Of a DNA stretch of 56,009 nucleotides, positions 12,020-21,682 are shown piece after piece. The notes under the pieces were generated by a model. The model searched no databases. It was not told the origin of the DNA and saw only the letters and a program-made list of their open reading frames with translations. Both the position numbers and the translations under genes were made by a program. The DNA lies in contig JAJQEV010000125.1 in the NCBI GenBank assembly GCA_021201475.1, positions 1 through 56,009 on the forward strand, written 5' to 3'. The stretch is from Clostridiales bacterium. Lineage in GTDB: Bacteria; Bacillota; Clostridia; Oscillospirales; Oscillospiraceae. Numbering within the stretch: the stretch's first letter is position 1; every line of letters begins with the position of its first letter.

Positions 12020-12108
12020 AATGACCTCCTGTGTTGTTGGGACTTTGTCGGAGGTAAATCTGCTGCCATTTGCTGCTTCTTTTTATCGTTCTTTATGTAA
12101 GTCACTCT

Positions 12109-15493: not shown

Positions 15494-15560
15494 ATAAGTG
15501 ACCGCGATCCTGACCGGTAAAGGAGGTGAAGCCTATAAGACCTGAAAACAGGCAAAAATC

Positions 15561-15675
15561 ATTCGCCAATCGGTAAAAATGGCAAAACAGCGATTTTCGG
15601 CAGTCCCAGACGGATAACTCTCCATCTGGGGCTGTTAAAAATCGAAAATCGCTAAAAACGTCAATTCGCCAATCG
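15561..15675. repeat. Structured non-coding segment: nested hairpin flanked by direct repeats
   Basis: ATTCGCCAATCG occurs at 15561-15572 and again at 15664-15675. Between them AGCGATTTTCG (15589-15599) pairs with CGAAAATCGCT (15643-15653), enclosing CAGTCCCAGA paired with TCTGGGGCTG. The whole gap 15494-15732 has no gene. Confidence 0.6.
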
Positions 15676-15732
15676 AGGAAAATTGCCCGAAAATGGCTCC
15701 TTAGAGAAAATTTTTGATTTTGGAGGTAGTTT

Positions 15733-16041
15733 ATGTACAAGCTCACGAAAAAAGAGAGAGACACAGAGATTTATTACAACCAGTCCAGCGATCCCATGCA
15801 GATACGCACCAACGACCCGAAGCTCATCCGGAGGCTGAAAGGATTGAGCGAGGAATATCCGGAGCTTTGTAAGCTCACTGAAGAAGATGAAATCTGCGGC
15901 TGCTATTTCGATGTAGATAAGCGCCGGATCAGTATCCAGGTGACGCGCCCCTACTCTGAGGAACGCCGGAGGAAACAGAGCGAGTGGGCGAAGAAAAATG
16001 GATTGTGCAGAAATTCGTCGAGTCACATCACGAAAAGCTGA
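15733..16041 (+). CDS. Small conserved transposon protein (MYKLTKKER type)
   Basis: A 102-residue basic/acidic protein of a type I associate with clostridial conjugative elements. It starts MYKLTKKERDTEIYYNQSSD, with central SEEYPELCKLTEEDE and the C-terminal RPYSEERRRKQSEWAKKNG. GGAGG precedes the ATG by six bases. The last dozen residues (CRNSSSHITKS) look unlike the rest of the family as I remember it. They lie exactly where the AT-rich restriction cassette begins, so the cassette insertion may have replaced the original tail. Function unknown. Confidence 0.6.
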   Translation: MYKLTKKERDTEIYYNQSSDPMQIRTNDPKLIRRLKGLSEEYPELCKLTEEDEICGCYFDVDKRRISIQVTRPYSEERRRKQSEWAKKNGLCRNSSSHITKS

Positions 16042-16048
16042 TAAATTG

Positions 16049-16093
16049 TTGATTATTGGAGAAGCTTCTGCTATAATGTACACGCTACATTAT
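16049..16093 (+). promoter_or_regulatory. Promoter and C-box-like operator of the restriction cassette
   Basis: TTGATT (16049-16054), a 17-nt spacer and TATAAT (16072-16077). The perfect palindrome ATAATGTA-cacgc-TACATTAT (16073-16093) overlaps the -10 and start site, as expected for autorepression by the HTH controller. Downstream, tandem ATGATTTAT-type repeats (about 16099-16127) may be further half-sites. Confidence 0.7.
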
Positions 16094-16148
16094 GACGATG
16101 ATGATTTATGATGATTATGATTTATACAAATGCGAATAGGAGAAACTC

Positions 16149-16364
16149 ATGACATACAATTATGACGGACTCTGGAAGATGCTAATTGATAAAAAAATTA
16201 CAAAAACTGAGATGCGTAAGGATGCAGGAATAAGCACCAATGTACTTGCGAAGATGGGAAAAGGTGAATCTGTATCGTTAGAAAGTCTTGCTAAGATTTG
16301 TTTTGCCATGGGTTGCGGACTTGACGATATTGTAAAAATCGAAACAGATAACAAGATAGGATGA
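16149..16364 (+). CDS. Cro/CI-type HTH controller of the restriction-modification operon
   Basis: A 71-residue single-domain HTH protein of the YozG/Cro type. It has LWKMLIDKKITKTEMRKDAGIS, then STNVLAKMGKGESVSLESLAKICFAMGCGLDDIV. It sits 6 nt before the methyltransferase gene and shares its operon, the usual place of R-M controller proteins that time methylase before nuclease expression. AGGAG precedes the ATG by six bases. The palindrome over the promoter is the presumed binding site. Codon use is AT-rich like the other three cassette genes. Confidence 0.85.
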   Translation: MTYNYDGLWKMLIDKKITKTEMRKDAGISTNVLAKMGKGESVSLESLAKICFAMGCGLDDIVKIETDNKIG

Positions 16365-16370
16365 ATCTAA

Positions 16371-17570
16371 ATGGAAAAAATTAAAGTGCTTGATGTTTTT
16401 TCGGGTGCAGGAGGATTTAGTTGTGGATTTGAGATGGCCGGTTGCGAAATTATAGGTGCGATTGAACGTGATAAATGGGCAACAGACACTTTCCGACTTA
16501 ATCACCCAGCATCAAAAATTCTTTTAGGCGATATTGAGACTTTTACGAATGATTTCTTGCGTAAAGAAATAGAGCAGCCAGATATTATTATCGGAGGACC
16601 ACCTTGTCAAGGTTTTTCTGTATGTGTAAAAAATGCTGGTGATCCAAAAGACCCTAGGAATTCATTATTCATAGAGTTTATTCGTATGGCTCAAATCTTT
16701 TCGCCTAAAGTTATGGTCATGGAAAATGTGCCTAATATTGCAAAAGCCAAGACACAAGATGGGCGAAAAGTAATTGATATTATAAAAACAGAGTTTATTA
16801 AGTTGGGTTATAATGTATATTATAATATCCTTGCTGCTAGTGATTATGGTGTGCCTCAAATGCGCCAGAGATTTGTTTTAATTGCGTCAAAGGAGAAGCT
16901 AGAAGAACCATTTCCAAAAGCAACACATTTTGTGGCGGAAGATGAAAGTGATAATCATGGTGATTTGTTGAGATGTCCCACGCTTTGGGAAGCAATTTCA
17001 GATTTACCTGATATAGAGGCACGAGAAGGTGCGGAAGTCATGGCATATACTAAGCCAGCTACTAACGATTATCAAAAAATGTGCCGCAATGAAGCTTCTG
17101 AGTTGCATAACCATTTAGCAATGAAGCACACAAAAAGGTTGGTAGAAAGATTTAGTCATATGACATGGGGGCAATCAGTTTCTGATATAGATGATGATAA
17201 TTTGAAGCAACGAAAAAGAAATGGAAATGGTGCGGTTTCGGATTCTCCTTATGATCAAAATAACCGGCGGATGCATCCGGACAAAATCTGCCACACTATA
17301 ACGGCAACCTTTTATGGAAATTTTGTTCATCCATATAAGAACAGAAATTTTACCGCACGAGAAGGAGCGCGAATTCAATCTTTTCCTGATACATATGTAT
17401 TTTTAGGGAAACCTACGGTTGTTAGTAAAAAACTTTTAATGAAAGAAGGTCGAACCGCAGAGGCTTTTCTTTGTCAATATAGTCAAATTGGTAATGCTGT
17501 GCCGCCTTTAATGGCTCGTGCAATTGCAGAAAATATAATAAGGCAAATTAATTTTACAGAGGAGAAATAA
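16371..17570 (+). CDS. DNA (cytosine-5) methyltransferase
   Basis: A 399-residue modification enzyme that transfers a methyl group from SAM to cytosine C5. All core motifs are present in order: motif I DVFSGAGGFSCGFEMAG (about 7-23), motif IV GGPPCQGFSV with the catalytic Cys, motif VI MENV, motif VIII QMRQRFVLIA, motif IX-like ARIQSFPDTYVF and motif X IGNAVPP. The target-recognition region (about 185-330) is of ordinary length. It is immediately followed by a restriction endonuclease gene (1 nt apart), so it protects the host from that enzyme. Specificity cannot be read from sequence. AT-rich codons mark the cassette as foreign to the element. Confidence 0.96.
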   Translation: MEKIKVLDVFSGAGGFSCGFEMAGCEIIGAIERDKWATDTFRLNHPASKILLGDIETFTNDFLRKEIEQPDIIIGGPPCQGFSVCVKNAGDPKDPRNSLFIEFIRMAQIFSPKVMVMENVPNIAKAKTQDGRKVIDIIKTEFIKLGYNVYYNILAASDYGVPQMRQRFVLIASKEKLEEPFPKATHFVAEDESDNHGDLLRCPTLWEAISDLPDIEAREGAEVMAYTKPATNDYQKMCRNEASELHNHLAMKHTKRLVERFSHMTWGQSVSDIDDDNLKQRKRNGNGAVSDSPYDQNNRRMHPDKICHTITATFYGNFVHPYKNRNFTAREGARIQSFPDTYVFLGKPTVVSKKLLMKEGRTAEAFLCQYSQIGNAVPPLMARAIAENIIRQINFTEEK

Positions 17571-17571
17571 G

Positions 17572-18447
17572 ATGAGTACATATGTTCACGGAGACAATAT
17601 TGCACAGAAGGAAAATCATCGTAAAAAATATCAGGATGCTCTTTCGCGGCAATACTTATCAGAAATTCGAACACGATATGAAGAGTGGAAAGCTGCAAAT
17701 ATAGCGTTGCTAGGTCCGTTTAAAACACCAGAGGACAATGATCTACAGATTATTGAGCAACGAGTCGAATTGTTTAATGAGTATAAAGATTTTATTGATC
17801 AGCAAAAATATGCTGAACAGTTTGACTCTCGTTCAAACCTTCATTCATCGGCACTTGAGGAGTTCATGTATTATCTGTTTAAAGATTTGACGGCTGATTT
17901 TTCTACAGATGCGCTTATTGGGAAATCAAGGGCATTTAAGGATTTATCATTTAAGAGTGATAGTTACACAAGCATGTTATCACATCCAGGGGCGTTGCTG
18001 GAAGTAAAAGATTATGATTTTGTGATAGGGGCTACAATTAATGCTGAATTTCATTGCAAAGGTGTAGATGAAGAAGAACGTGAAAGCTTCGATATGCCTG
18101 CTGTAGCTATCGAATGCAAAACTTACTTGGATAAAACAATGTTGGAATCTTGTTCAACTACGGGTGAGCAGTTAAAGAAAAATAATCCTAATGCTCTTTA
18201 TTTTGTGGTTGCAGAAAGACTAAAATTAAGTGAAGCAGTTAATCTTAAAAATTGTAAGATTGATCAGATTTATATTTTGAGAAAGCAAAAGAATACTGAC
18301 CGAGAAGACCGGTTTTTGGAAGGGTATGTTGCTAATCCAATATATGCTGATGTGGTGTGGCATTTGTTTAATTCTGTAAGAGAATATCTTTCCTCTGACT
18401 GGGGAGGAAAAATTGCAGATGGATTGCAGCGAGGTTACTTAATGTAG
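17572..18447 (+). CDS. Type II restriction endonuclease, PD-(D/E)XK, possibly Bpu10I family
   Basis: A 291-residue protein. A helical N-terminus leads to a core with LEVKDYDFVIGATI and the metal-site motif AIECKTYLDKTMLE (E-x-K), then ALYFVVAERLKLS. The size and core layout resemble the Bpu10I-type family, whose subunits are about this length; that name is a recollection, not a search result. Its position 1 nt after the m5C methyltransferase, in one operon, is strong contextual support. GAGGAG lies seven bases before the ATG. If it is truly Bpu10I-like, a second subunit would be expected. The next gene does not look like one, so it may act as a homodimer. Confidence 0.8.
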   Translation: MSTYVHGDNIAQKENHRKKYQDALSRQYLSEIRTRYEEWKAANIALLGPFKTPEDNDLQIIEQRVELFNEYKDFIDQQKYAEQFDSRSNLHSSALEEFMYYLFKDLTADFSTDALIGKSRAFKDLSFKSDSYTSMLSHPGALLEVKDYDFVIGATINAEFHCKGVDEEERESFDMPAVAIECKTYLDKTMLESCSTTGEQLKKNNPNALYFVVAERLKLSEAVNLKNCKIDQIYILRKQKNTDREDRFLEGYVANPIYADVVWHLFNSVREYLSSDWGGKIADGLQRGYLM

Positions 18448-18493
18448 TCGATTTATGTTAATGCCTACGGTAATAAATATGTGAGGTGATTAT

Positions 18494-19507
18494 GTGGCAA
18501 AAAGAAAAATGATACAAAATAATTTGATTAAAAACTCAATGGCTGCATATTATGCCGCAATTGAAATTCACAATAAGCCAAGTATCGCATATAGATATGA
18601 AACCGTTACGCTTCTTATGATGAATGCCTGGGAACTTGCTCTAAAAGCTTATGTAAAGAAGTATATTAAAAATCGTTCTATCTTTACAGCGGACGGCCAT
18701 ACTATAAGCATAGATAAAGCTTTAGATTATGTGACGGAACATCGAAACCACGTAAAGGCTAATAGTTTTACTGCTGTACAACAGAATATCCTTGCAATAG
18801 AGAAGTATCGTAATAACATCACACATTTTTATTGTGATGAGTTGGAACCATATATTTTTATGTTGGTTGCTCGATCGGCTCTTAATTATGTTGATTTTGT
18901 CAAAGAATATTTAGGAAAGGATGTGATGGCTGATCAAGGATTGTTTATTTTACCGCTTGGTTTCAAGTTGCCTTTTATGCCGGAAGATTTTTTGTCTGAC
19001 AATGTAGCAAAATACGCTGCTTCATCAGAGGCTAAGAAGTTTATCAAGGACATTGTACAAATTATCACCGATTTAAATGAGAATGGGATTGAGGATTCTA
19101 TTGTTTTAGGATTTGATTTGTATTTTGAAAGCGTTAAAAAACAAACCAATAGTTCAATCCTTGCGGCTATTACAAGTGAGGAGAATGCTGATGTAAATTT
19201 TGCAAAAGTTACATCTGTTCGCTTCTCTGAAGATGCAAGTCAAGTTGTTAGCATGAGTGATGATGAATTCAGAAAAATATGGAAGTATTCGCATTCAGAG
19301 GTTGTTGAATGGTGCAAAGAAAATATTCCTCAATTTAAACAGGGAAAATTGTTCAATGACGCCAAGAAATCAATCGCGACAGATCAAAATTGCGTTTATG
19401 TGAAAAGATTGGATTCAACGAATAGTAAATCTGCATCACAAAGGTTTTATACGGATACTGCATTGACTAAAATAAGAGAATATTATCTTCATCATAATCA
19501 AAATTGA
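18494..19507 (+). CDS. DUF3644 protein with a HEPN-type RNxxxH motif
   Basis: A 337-residue soluble protein. The N-terminal part matches DUF3644: AYYAAIEIHNKPSIAYRYET and MMNAWELALKAYVKKY. It carries KYRNNITHFY with R106, N107 and H111, the R-x4-H signature of HEPN ribonucleases, followed by a long helix (IFMLVARSALNYVDFVKEYL). The C-terminal half (about 150-337) is unassigned. The start is GTG 18494 after GAGGTGA; the overlapping ATG at 18492 leads to a stop within seven codons. It lies 46 nt after the nuclease gene, shares its AT-rich codon use and ends at a terminator, so it is the fourth gene of the cassette. RNase activity is an inference from the motif. Confidence 0.75.
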   Translation: MAKRKMIQNNLIKNSMAAYYAAIEIHNKPSIAYRYETVTLLMMNAWELALKAYVKKYIKNRSIFTADGHTISIDKALDYVTEHRNHVKANSFTAVQQNILAIEKYRNNITHFYCDELEPYIFMLVARSALNYVDFVKEYLGKDVMADQGLFILPLGFKLPFMPEDFLSDNVAKYAASSEAKKFIKDIVQIITDLNENGIEDSIVLGFDLYFESVKKQTNSSILAAITSEENADVNFAKVTSVRFSEDASQVVSMSDDEFRKIWKYSHSEVVEWCKENIPQFKQGKLFNDAKKSIATDQNCVYVKRLDSTNSKSASQRFYTDTALTKIREYYLHHNQN

Positions 19508-19535
19508 ACATAGTGGCACTAAAAATGGCCAAGCG

Positions 19536-19574
19536 AAAAGCTCTCAACCGTAACAAGTTGGGAGCTTTTCTTTT
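19536..19574 (+). terminator. Terminator of the restriction/DUF3644 cassette
   Basis: AAAAGCTCTCAAC pairs with GTTGGGAGCTTTT (one wobble) and is followed by CTTTT. It may have belonged to the interrupted transposon operon. CGAAAAGCT inside it also occurs at the left side of the cassette (16031-16039). Confidence 0.75.
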
Positions 19575-19612
19575 GCCCATTTTTCAAATCACACAGAAAG
19601 GAGATCATGCTT

Positions 19613-19939
19613 ATGGGACGCAGAAAGACACCAGAGACCAGGGAGGAAATGCAGGCCGAGATCGCTTACACCGAGGACAAGATCAGGCAGCTGCACAACC
19701 AGGAGACGGCACTGACCGCCGCTTATTCCAAAGAGGAACGCCGGGTGCGGACGAGACGGCTCTGCACGGAGGCCGGTATCCTGGAACACTATGTGCCGGA
19801 GCTGAAGACGATGGACGAGCGAAACGCCAGTGATTTCATTCGTCTGATTGCCTGCTCCGAGGTGGCGAAGAAATTTTTACGAATGAGAGGACTGAGGAAC
19901 GATGAAGTACCGACCAACCCGGATACGGGAATTAACTAA
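19613..19939 (+). CDS. DUF3847-like mobilization accessory protein
   Basis: A 108-residue protein. It has an N-terminal coiled coil (TREEMQAEIAYTEDKIRQLHNQE) and a basic segment (SKEERRVRTRRLCTEAGILE), in the style of DUF3847 proteins encoded just before relaxases in clostridial elements. The ATG at 19613 is nine bases from AAAGGAG; the ATG at 19607 would be only three bases away. Its coiled coil and basic patch fit an oriT-binding relaxosome accessory protein, and an oriT-like site follows its stop codon. That role is inference. Confidence 0.65.
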   Translation: MGRRKTPETREEMQAEIAYTEDKIRQLHNQETALTAAYSKEERRVRTRRLCTEAGILEHYVPELKTMDERNASDFIRLIACSEVAKKFLRMRGLRNDEVPTNPDTGIN

Positions 19940-19992: not shown

Positions 19993-20185
19993 GAGACTCC
20001 TACCGATACCGCTGCTGCGTTATCTGCGGAGCGCTGGCACCTACGGTGCGGCAAGGGACACTTCGTTTCCCTTACGCCGGTGAGACCGGCTATCCCTTTT
20101 CCAACCCACCGCCGCCAAATCTCTATGAGATATTCGCTGTCGGTGTGGTGCTGCTCTACTTCTTGCAGAAAGCGAGGTGATGACG

Positions 20186-21682
20186 ATGGCGATTTATCAT
20201 TGTGCCATGCAGGTGATCGGACGGAGCAGCAACCGGAGAACGAACAGTGCTGTTGCGGCTGCGGCCTACCGAAGCGGCTCTCAGATTTACGATGAGTGGC
20301 GCGGGATAAATGAGGACTACAGGAGAAAGAAGGAAGTTGTCTACTCAGAGATCATGCTGCCGGACAATGCACCAGAGGCATTCAAAGATCGCGCTACCCT
20401 CTGGAACTCTGTCGAGTTGTTCGAGACCAGAAAGAACGCCCAGCTTGCCAGGGAGATTGAAGTGTCACTTCCTGTTGAGCTGGATTTAGATGAACACGTT
20501 AAAATCATCCACGACTACTGTGAGCCGTTCCGAGCCGCCGGTATGTGCGTGGATTTTAATATTCATCAGAAACCGAACAACCCCCATTGCCATATCATGC
20601 TGACGCTCCGGCCTCTGGACGAACATGGACAGTGGATGCCGAAAGGAAAATTTGTCTATGACCTTGATGAGAACGGCGAGCGTATCCGTCTCCCCAGCGG
20701 GAAATGGAAATCCCACAAGGAACCGACCGTTGACTGGAGCGAACAGGGCAAGGCCGAGGAATGGCGAGCTGCATGGGCAGATGTTGTGAACCGCCATCTT
20801 GAAATGAATGGCTTCACAGAACGTATTGACCACCGCAGCAACGCCGACCGTGGCATTGAAGAAATCCCAACTATTCACATGGGGCCTGCCGCCTGTGCGA
20901 TGGAGAAGAAAGGTATTCGGACAGAGCGCGGCGACATCAACCGGCAGATCAAAGCGGCTAACAAGCTTATCAAGGAAATCCGGACAAGGATTAACGATCT
21001 GAAAGACTGGCTGTCCGCTCTCACCGCAGCCATGAAGGAAGTCATTGATGAGGCGAAGTCTCCCAGCCTGGCCGATCTGATGGTGCAGTATATGGAGCTG
21101 GAGAGCCAGCGTGTGCAGAAGTATTCCGGCAGATTTCGTTTGAATCACAGCGTTTCCGTTTTTGAAGATGTGAAGAAGTCCATCGACGATTTGAATGCCG
21201 ACGGTATCTACACACTGGACGATCTGGAGAAAGCGATTGCCAAAGTGAAGGACAAATCTTATTCCACTCAGCAGAGCGTCCGCAAAAAGGAACGCCGGAT
21301 GAAGGAATTGGAGAAGCTGATCGACCAGGGCAAACAGTATCAAACGAACCTCCCTGTCCGGAAACAGTACAACGCGATCAAGCGTCAGAAAAAGAAAGAG
21401 GCGTTCGAGGAAGAACACCGCCCGGAAATGATTCTCTGGAATACGGCGAACCGCTTCCTTCATGCCAACCACATCGAGCCGGATACTCTGCCGATTAAGC
21501 TGAAAGAATGGAAAGATGAATTGCTTGAGCTGACCATCGCGCACAATGAACAGTATGAGGAATTGAAAGAGATCAGGGAGGAAGTTGACAAGCTGAATGC
21601 CGTCCACCGCCAGGTGGAGAAAGTGTTGACTCCGGCACAGGAACAACAGCAGAGAAAAAAGAGAGATATGGATTTGTCATAA
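20186..21682 (+). CDS. MobA/MobL family relaxase
   Basis: A 498-residue relaxase that would nick the oriT upstream. The N-terminal catalytic domain (about 1-220) starts MAIYHC and contains SAVAAAAYRSG, the NNPHCHIMLTLR metal-binding motif (H134, H136) with upstream H127, and GIRTERGDINRQIKAAN. The C-terminus (about 250-490) is a long coiled coil without a primase domain. The ATG at 20186 is chosen because GAGG lies eight bases upstream; GTG 20177 and ATG 20180 overlap that site. This is the second, unrelated relaxase of the element. It is followed by a terminator and then replication-like genes. Confidence 0.93.
   Translation: MAIYHCAMQVIGRSSNRRTNSAVAAAAYRSGSQIYDEWRGINEDYRRKKEVVYSEIMLPDNAPEAFKDRATLWNSVELFETRKNAQLAREIEVSLPVELDLDEHVKIIHDYCEPFRAAGMCVDFNIHQKPNNPHCHIMLTLRPLDEHGQWMPKGKFVYDLDENGERIRLPSGKWKSHKEPTVDWSEQGKAEEWRAAWADVVNRHLEMNGFTERIDHRSNADRGIEEIPTIHMGPAACAMEKKGIRTERGDINRQIKAANKLIKEIRTRINDLKDWLSALTAAMKEVIDEAKSPSLADLMVQYMELESQRVQKYSGRFRLNHSVSVFEDVKKSIDDLNADGIYTLDDLEKAIAKVKDKSYSTQQSVRKKERRMKELEKLIDQGKQYQTNLPVRKQYNAIKRQKKKEAFEEEHRPEMILWNTANRFLHANHIEPDTLPIKLKEWKDELLELTIAHNEQYEELKEIREEVDKLNAVHRQVEKVLTPAQEQQQRKKRDMDLS

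Follow-up and report, generated by a model that had tools for sequence, protein, structure and literature searches.

The DUF3644 domain was called a new HEPN domain in 2013, and the part of that paper drawn on here reports EC042_2821, which overlaps DUF3644, in restriction–modification (R-M) operons (PMC3710099). EC042_2821 is described in the same portion of the source (Anantharaman 2013) with an N-terminal wHTH in some cases and a C-terminal REase-like domain; the clade considered below is without the N-terminal part seen in our loci L043 and L044, and its C-terminus is modelled as winged-helix-like. PADLOC-DB holds the family as well: its model PDLC04955 (PDC-S19) matches our DUF3644 protein near full length (residues 1–334, E 6.2e-141), with neither a description nor a mechanism attached to the entry. 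We take PDC to stand for phage defence candidate.

The other point of comparison is PrrC–EcoprrI, in which the HEPN RNase gene of an anticodon nuclease lies among type Ic R-M genes, much as DUF3644 lies among R-M genes here. The published order is hsdM-hsdS-prrC-hsdR, and all 19 PrrC orthologues considered in one review are linked to type Ic genes (PMC3014915). PrrC has an ABC-type NTPase domain, whereas Pfam assigns no ATPase family to DUF3644, and the partner of PrrC is type Ic, whereas that of our DUF3644 protein is type II. We know of no multi-subunit complex in which a type II endonuclease masks a nuclease, and therefore PrrC-style masking cannot simply apply.

The locus discussed here lies in a window of 56,009 nucleotides (the whole stretch of DNA analysed) from a Clostridia-like bacterium. 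An initial annotation had singled out its R-M plus HEPN pairing as the best candidate there for an incompletely described system. This is fair insofar as we found no experimental paper on DUF3644 in an open-access library; it is too strong for the family itself, whose HEPN assignment and R-M operons under EC042_2821 have been in print since 2013 (PMC3710099, in the part cited above) and which PADLOC-DB already contains. We lean, by a modest degree, toward reading the cassette as a type II R-M system joined to a PrrC-like second-layer RNase that lacks PrrC's ATPase.

A type II R-M cassette in a cargo slot

By open reading frames and Pfam, the cassette consists of four AT-rich plus-strand genes (16149–19507) within a mobilizable element, as the initial annotation had said. 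An HTH_26 (Cro/C1-type) regulator of 71 aa (16149–16364; E 1.3e-18) is followed by an m5C DNA methyltransferase of 399 aa (16371–17570; C-5 cytosine methylase, E 7.6e-70), a BbvCI/Bpu10I-type restriction endonuclease of 291 aa (17572–18447; RE_Bpu10I, E 2.1e-26) and a DUF3644 protein of 337 aa with a GTG start (18494–19507; E 1e-38). The insert is AT-rich: the cassette genes have a GC content of 34–37% (GC3 26–33%), and the seven flanking element genes that we measured have 50–55% (GC3 55–73%).

The cargo proper runs from about 16002–16006 to about 19525. On its left, DNA homology to sister elements ends at 16001–16005, within a plus-strand element ORF of 102 aa (15733–16041). On its right stands a terminator hairpin (19526–19577, + strand), followed on the same strand by the element's DUF3847 gene (19607–19939, by Pfam) and its MobA/MobL relaxase gene (20177–21682). 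The hairpin is strong (–22.4 kcal/mol, z –5.2, folding in 19530–19585), although a consensus scan does not list it; a terminator at this end had been proposed, and that much stands. It is probably element backbone rather than part of the cassette, because the segment 19526–19577 is 85% identical in L168, where different cargo precedes it. The insertion point is a cargo slot, with R-M genes of differing types in five of its six two-sided copies, type I and type III systems among the occupants and a non-R-M AAA/DUF4143 gene in L166; no empty slot was seen among the loci read. It illustrates the modular exchange of several R-M types among elements of the same genus.

The probable cassette promoter, TTGATT-17-TATAAT with a TG before the second hexamer (16049–16077, + strand), is the best-matching plus-strand site and lies just upstream of the first gene. 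A promoter at this end had been suggested earlier, but such sites occur in the region at chance level (13 vs 12.9 in shuffles). An inverted repeat, ATAATGTA-5-TACATTAT (16073–16093), spans the –10 hexamer and is a candidate operator on which the HTH_26 regulator would probably act at its own promoter; arms of at least 8 arise in 2.2% of 1000 Markov-1 leaders. The first three genes had also been called a controlled type II R-M system. The type II families bear out the R-M part; the "controller" is only a candidate, an HTH_26 protein that scores below the Pfam cut-off for HTH_3, with a single inverted repeat over the –10.

The methylase has the catalytic motifs PCQ (at 78), ENV (at 118), RQR and GNAV, and the PD-(D/E)XK endonuclease adjoining it falls in a type II family already known. 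As a near full-length homologue of BbvCI R2 (residues 4–289, E 3.7e-37), the endonuclease belongs with BbvCI, BlpI and Bpu10I and has the same active-site pattern, likely D149...E181-C-K183. At the positions proposed to set specificity, its residues are also of the R2 type: K218, N241, M190 and R87 fit the pattern that has been tentatively published for GCTN half-sites around an unspecified centre, and on that pattern we predict the target GC^TNAGC. Encoded by one gene, the enzyme is probably a symmetric homo-oligomer. The target of BbvCI is asymmetric, whereas a single endonuclease gene and a single methylase gene lead us to expect a symmetric, BlpI-like target here. The endonuclease did not turn up in the plasmid or phage records searched. 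The window itself contains 12 GCTNAGC sites, compared with 16.9 (sd 4.6) in shuffles, and none left of 26882; this count does not bear on whether the predicted target is right.

A HEPN-like DUF3644 protein

What type of protein is the product of the fourth gene? Its predicted structure has a HEPN-like helical bundle at about residues 1–140 and a confident winged-helix-like C-terminal part at about 256–335. R106 and H111, which had been placed at exactly these positions before, lie in the bundle, and this R-x4-H pair, which fits the R-x4-6-H motif of HEPN proteins, is invariant in 22/22 aligned DUF3644 proteins and in 41/41 rows of a second alignment (the two alignments have three rows in common). 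The first nine PDB fold matches are all titled HEPN (probabilities 0.87–1.00, E 0.06–0.18), led by 2hsb (probability 1.00, target TM 0.74), for a model that is middling overall (mean pLDDT 71.5, pTM 0.51) and has no fold match with E below 0.001 (best 0.06). Matches 10–15 are toxin–antitoxin complexes, presumably of the HEPN-MNT type. Families, motifs and predicted fold thus agree with the earlier description, in which an RNase-like protein of HEPN type accompanies a type II R-M system, and we infer that DUF3644 is an RNase.

The N-terminus, modelled as helical, contains no ABC-type NTPase family by Pfam, and the C-terminal part gave no convincing match to a named DNA-binding family. A PDB sequence search also returned WD40-like matches at about 237–265. 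We dropped these as chance, because they are weak (only two of the 60 listed have a stretch that passes alone, E 0.28) and the model, of low confidence there, shows no propeller.

Gene neighbourhoods of DUF3644

The new observation is that the window protein's DUF3644 clade lies beside R-M genes in six of seven loci, window included, with changing partners: type I genes three times in the order hsdM-hsdS-DUF3644-hsdR, type I genes in a different arrangement, a DpnII-type system and the type II system of the window. Among the relatives, type I genes are found in L013, L046, L014 and L004, and in the first three DUF3644 occupies the hsdS/hsdR interval, the very position of prrC. There, DUF3644 and hsdR overlap by 17–20 bp (longest reading frames); for example, the L013 gene lies 13 bp from hsdS and overlaps hsdR by 17 bp. 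In L018 and L019, DUF3644 comes directly after an S gene. Independent events are fewer than loci, because L013 and L046 (DUF3644 98.5% identical) are kin, as are L018 and L019 (81%).

Recurrent R-M linkage, the check that had been proposed, is found for the clade of the window protein but not in viral contigs, where an R-M gene is near 1 of 80 DUF3644 genes (Fisher P 1e-7; leaving out the window, 1e-6); the clade was screened with 8-kb flanks and Pfam, the viral contigs more crudely, with flanks of at most 4 kb, often incomplete, home-made profiles and many near-identical rows. No close relative of the window protein was found in the viral contigs searched, and DUF3644 without R-M neighbours is frequent in phages, satellites and plasmids. 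Across other genomes and records, DUF3644 has a match to an N6 or m5C methylase no more than 3 kb away in 6/22 (expected 0.28, P 9e-8), or in 4/20 with one locus per kin pair (expected 0.26, P 7e-5), both excluding W02, a circular plasmid with a weak N6_Mtase match (37 bits) 2.9 kb from DUF3644; including it gives 7/23 (P 4e-8).

The more specific expectation of linkage to m5C methylase/PD-(D/E)XK pairs is not borne out: type I systems account for four of the six loci linked to R-M, and the closest such pair found (58% and 62% identical; L039/L040, near-identical contigs counted as one) is without DUF3644 in the stretch read. That absence makes the partnership a loose one. DUF3644 is likewise absent from the stretches fetched at four further Bpu10I-type loci (L048–L051), which together with L039/L040 leads us to reject a specific link to Bpu10I-type R-M.

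Alternative explanations

DUF3644 could instead be an independent abortive-infection gene that senses phage alone, with R-M genes nearby only through the clustering of defence genes in islands and slots. We give this possibility real, if minority, weight. It fits the 79 of 80 viral-contig loci that have no R-M match in the stretch screened, satellite phage Javan50, where DUF3644 sits between the integrase and the repressor genes on its opposite side, L003, whose DUF3644 is 70% identical and has zero R-M matches within 8 kb, and the slot's non-R-M cargo in L166. However, a gene inside the hsd operon that overlaps hsdR, as in L013, L046 and L014, or that immediately follows an S gene, as in L018/L019, is placed more tightly than loose clustering would lead one to expect.

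Could the cassette be mainly a stability module, with element loss allowing the endonuclease, and perhaps DUF3644, to kill the cell? Type II R-M systems are discussed as possible addiction systems in integrative and mobilizable elements in the part of the source consulted (PMC5704250), and R-M genes recur in the carrier-element slot. Yet that slot also takes type I and type III systems, which are generally poor addiction modules, and Pfam identifies no antitoxin for DUF3644 among the four cassette genes, leaving this explanation improbable. Least probable is that the fourth gene is a passenger of no present function, caught during slot assembly. DUF3644 genes do decay, since the G1055 relative is split between two frames, but in the window the gene's reading frame is open and retains the residues that do not vary among 22 DUF3644 proteins, and the 70–74% identical relatives in L003 and L004 are also open frames.

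Proposed mechanism and outlook

Under the reading that we favour, R-M plus a PrrC-like RNase, a mobilizable element would have acquired a two-layer defence operon in a slot that mostly holds other R-M systems in its sisters. Layer one would be an ordinary type II R-M system of HTH_26 regulator, m5C methylase and BbvCI-R2-like endonuclease. Layer two would be the HEPN RNase-like DUF3644 with its winged-helix-like C-terminal part, from a clade that has repeatedly joined R-M operons of different types. DUF3644 probably stays inactive as long as restriction holds and the DNA is intact; once activated, it would cleave RNA (tRNA or mRNA) to halt phage growth, the role that PrrC plays alongside EcoprrI. 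The computation gives the gene content, the families, the predicted fold, the invariant R/H pair, the recurrent R-M neighbourhood and the slot; RNase activity, trigger and cooperation of the two layers are what we infer. The relatives beside other kinds of R-M suggest a reusable second line of anti-phage defence.

A bolder proposal, which we offer tentatively, is that the clade acts as a partner-swapping guard, with a single HEPN RNase serving type I, DpnII-type and BbvCI/BlpI-type R-M systems; such a guard would therefore read a signal shared by all. The signal might be restriction-made DNA ends, unmodified invading DNA or the loss of restriction, sensed perhaps via the winged-helix-like part and not through masking by one R-M complex, as for PrrC.

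Gene neighbourhoods have prompted proposals of a coupling between HEPN proteins and R-M since 2013; our worked example, PrrC, combines an NTPase domain with a type Ic partner. Here is a small, ATPase-less HEPN protein that takes the position of prrC in type I operons and has sisters with type II systems. With the DUF3644 clade one can test cleanly whether a single suicide effector is able to guard restriction systems of unrelated kinds, and which signal it responds to.

A four-gene cassette and its carrier

Four genes at 16149-19507 on the + strand are identified by family matches as, in order, an HTH_26 regulator (71 aa), a C-5 cytosine DNA methylase (399 aa), an RE_Bpu10I endonuclease (291 aa) and a DUF3644 protein (337 aa), separated by gaps of 6, 1 and 46 bp. 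Their GC content is 34-37% (GC3 26-33%) versus 50-55% (GC3 55-73%) in seven element genes measured on both flanks, bearing out the initial annotation of four same-strand, AT-rich genes amid ordinary element genes. The carrier, with TnpV, a MobA/MobL relaxase, a CHC2 zinc-finger protein and an AAA ATPase, has the content of a mobilizable element. A serine recombinase gene at 12070-13581 matches the Recombinase, Zn-ribbon and DUF4368 domains, with the N-terminal Resolvase domain unmatched; it looks truncated on its 5' side near 12100, behind an opposite-strand DUF6061 gene.

By DNA homology, the left flank (15560-16005) and the right flank (from 19526-19566) of the cassette recur around other cargo in same-genus genomes. 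Both sides are found in six copies of this slot, and five carry restriction-modification (R-M) cargo: type II genes with DUF3644 in the window, type III genes at L169, type I genes in the window's own genome (L170, contig C11, where the right side consists of relaxase and CHC2 genes), and an Eco57I-type methylase with a ResIII-type protein at L167, which has a resolvase beside the cargo (Pfam), and at L168, where the right side is a 52-bp piece at 85%. The sixth, L166, carries non-R-M cargo (AAA_14/DUF4143). R-M genes adjoin the left flank in 7 of 14 loci (the window and 13 of 14 retrieved), counting L176 (two m5C methylases and Vsr) and L177 (type I), where the left-flank match is only 57 bp; none were found beside it in L166, L171, L172, L173, L175, L178 and L179, several of which are short contigs or lose homology before the slot edge. 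R-M systems in integrative and mobilizable elements have been discussed in print as possible addiction modules (PMC5704250).

The restriction-modification genes

The type II R-M system of the cassette is ordinary. The PCQ, ENV, RQR and GNAV motifs of m5C methylases are all found in the methylase, and the endonuclease (residues 4-289) matches BbvCI subunit 2 with an E-value of 3.7e-37, its match to subunit 1 being weaker (3.4e-11). In a tentative proposal for BbvCI R2 (PMC6326814, Discussion), Lys214 and Asn236 determine the outer G:C, Met186 imposes no choice at the central base pair, and T:A goes with either Arg or Gln at the minor-groove position; the window residues at these positions, mapped by eye on the alignment, are K218, N241, M190 and R87. 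Because of these residues, and because there is only one endonuclease gene, we predict the target GC^TNAGC, which would be symmetric like that of BlpI. GCTNAGC sites are absent from 1-26881 of the window; all 12 lie to the right, and their total is within expectation.

The first gene had been labeled a controller; an HTH_26 regulator gene is indeed present, but it is not recognised as a classical C protein. The likely -10 is covered by an 8-5-8 inverted repeat, with arms of a length seen in 2.2% of simulated leaders, which would suit autorepression by this candidate regulator. HTH_26-like genes are found at other loci too: ahead of two N6/N4-type methylases in L055, and ahead of one in each of L048 and L049, which are Bpu10I-type loci. 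In the latter two, which are without DUF3644, the HTH protein (56% identity with the window's across 61 residues) and the methylase stand ahead of the endonuclease.

The DUF3644 protein

The AlphaFold model of the DUF3644 protein (30-row alignment; mean pLDDT 71.5, pTM 0.51) has a confident N-terminal helical bundle, a middle that is poorly modelled (below 50 at 153-177 and 198-250), and a C-terminal part, again confident, of helices and two strands that looks winged-helix-like from its secondary structure. In a Foldseek search of the PDB, matches 1-9 carry HEPN in their titles, the best being 2hsb (probability 1.00, target TM 0.74), with a best E-value of 0.06; matches 10-15 are toxin-antitoxin complexes, which we take to be of the HEPN-MNT type. 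The viral structure library gave nothing with E <0.001. Of the RNxxxH motif noted in the initial annotation, R106 and H111 are kept in 22/22 and in 41/41 aligned proteins. The protein matches the PADLOC-DB family PDC-S19 at 6.2e-141; we found no mention of PDC-S19 in the open-access literature.

Close relatives are rare. A scan of genome contigs gave 2 loci; PF12358 was found in 2/148 sampled relatives' genomes and 8/398 of the phylum, and PDLC04955 in 2/394 of the order and 8/391 of the class, the window genome counted each time. Besides that genome, close relatives occur in four (G364, G422, G874 and G1055), and the remaining matches are distant DUF3644; the families of G364, G422 and G874 yielded none beyond the centre genome itself. 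In a tree of 31 proteins, from which L055 (48% identical over 288 residues) was left out, the window protein clusters with L004, L003, L013, L046 and L014 (95/90).

Linkage to restriction-modification genes

R-M genes lie beside DUF3644 in 6 of the 7 loci of this clade, window included. The order is hsdM-hsdS-DUF3644-hsdR in L013 and L046, HTH-hsdM-hsdS-DUF3644-hsdR in L014, and hsdR-hsdS-hsdM-DUF3644 in L004, with hsdM split in two frames; in L055 a split DUF3644 lies between a D12 methylase/DpnII endonuclease/N6-N4 methylase set and two methylases behind the HTH_26-like gene, and in the window the partners are the m5C methylase and Bpu10I-type endonuclease. L003 has no R-M match. Independent cases are fewer than loci, since the L013 and L046 proteins are 98.5% identical; their S genes differ by length. 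At L055:8030-9093 (G1055) the relative is broken into two reading frames with two methylase or R-M sets around it, and L003:5820-9023, on a stretch that also carries relaxase and resolvase genes, has a 708-aa DUF4379 protein and, after it, a 70% identical DUF3644. The recurrent linkage anticipated for m5C methylase/PD-(D/E)XK pairs is supported, in this clade, for R-M genes of several types, but the partners are mostly type I and the nearest pair found lacks DUF3644 in the 10 kb covered.

Of 25 DUF3644 loci (L055 and those of 24 genomes or records), 11 have a gene for an R-M protein or DNA methylase adjoining or within ~3 kb (window, L004, L013, L046, L014, L018, L019, L044, L047, L026 and L055), leaving out L017 (G373; the sole match is a short m5C fragment at 2 kb) and plasmid W02 (L022; a weak N6_Mtase match 2.9 kb off across the record start). 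Absence is soft at L015, L020 and L045, which stop at contig edges. A placement model using N6 and m5C Pfam families only, with the window and W02 left out, the G373 fragment uncounted and clustering of defence genes ignored, gives 6/22 near DUF3644 versus 0.28 expected (P 9e-8); when each kin pair is reduced to a single member, the result is 4/20 versus 0.26 (P 7e-5).

Against a tie between the two, the closest methylase and endonuclease pair to the window's (58%, 62%) lies on two near-identical viral contigs with no DUF3644 in 10 kb, and DUF3644 is absent from the stretches examined at four further Bpu10I-type loci. Phages and satellites commonly carry DUF3644 with no R-M gene beside it. Matches occur in 37/50,697 phage records, 27 of them Streptococcus phages or satellites, and in 6/72,556 plasmid records; among these six, L026 has an EcoRI-family methylase near, L024 a methylase ~6 kb off, and W02 the weak match given above. 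In Javan50 (L180), one phage record examined for context, DUF3644 has the integrase on one side and repressor genes on the other. On viral contigs, an R-M match lies near 1 of 80 DUF3644 loci (best 80 of 122), as judged by home-made profiles cruder than Pfam on stretches of median 6.5 kb (12 below 6 kb, many near-identical); this match, at L094:2527-3960, is a type I-like N6 methylase profile adjoining DUF3644. Copies of DUF3644 with no R-M partner thus evidently exist, and its functional tie to R-M in the window is one that we infer.

Outlook

The fold and general hypothesis for DUF3644 are already known, since PMC3710099, the only open-access paper we found on DUF3644 or EC042_2821, names DUF3644 a new HEPN domain, places the overlapping EC042_2821 group in R-M operons, and proposes PrrC-like RNase release upon restriction failure for HEPN-R-M neighbourhoods. 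The published order for PrrC is hsdM-hsdS-prrC-hsdR (PMC3014915), and DUF3644 takes the same place between hsdS and hsdR in L013, L046 and L014; PrrC, however, is ATPase-bearing. What makes the locus interesting is its fourth gene, whose HEPN clade lacks an ATPase domain and combines this PrrC-like position with a change of partners.
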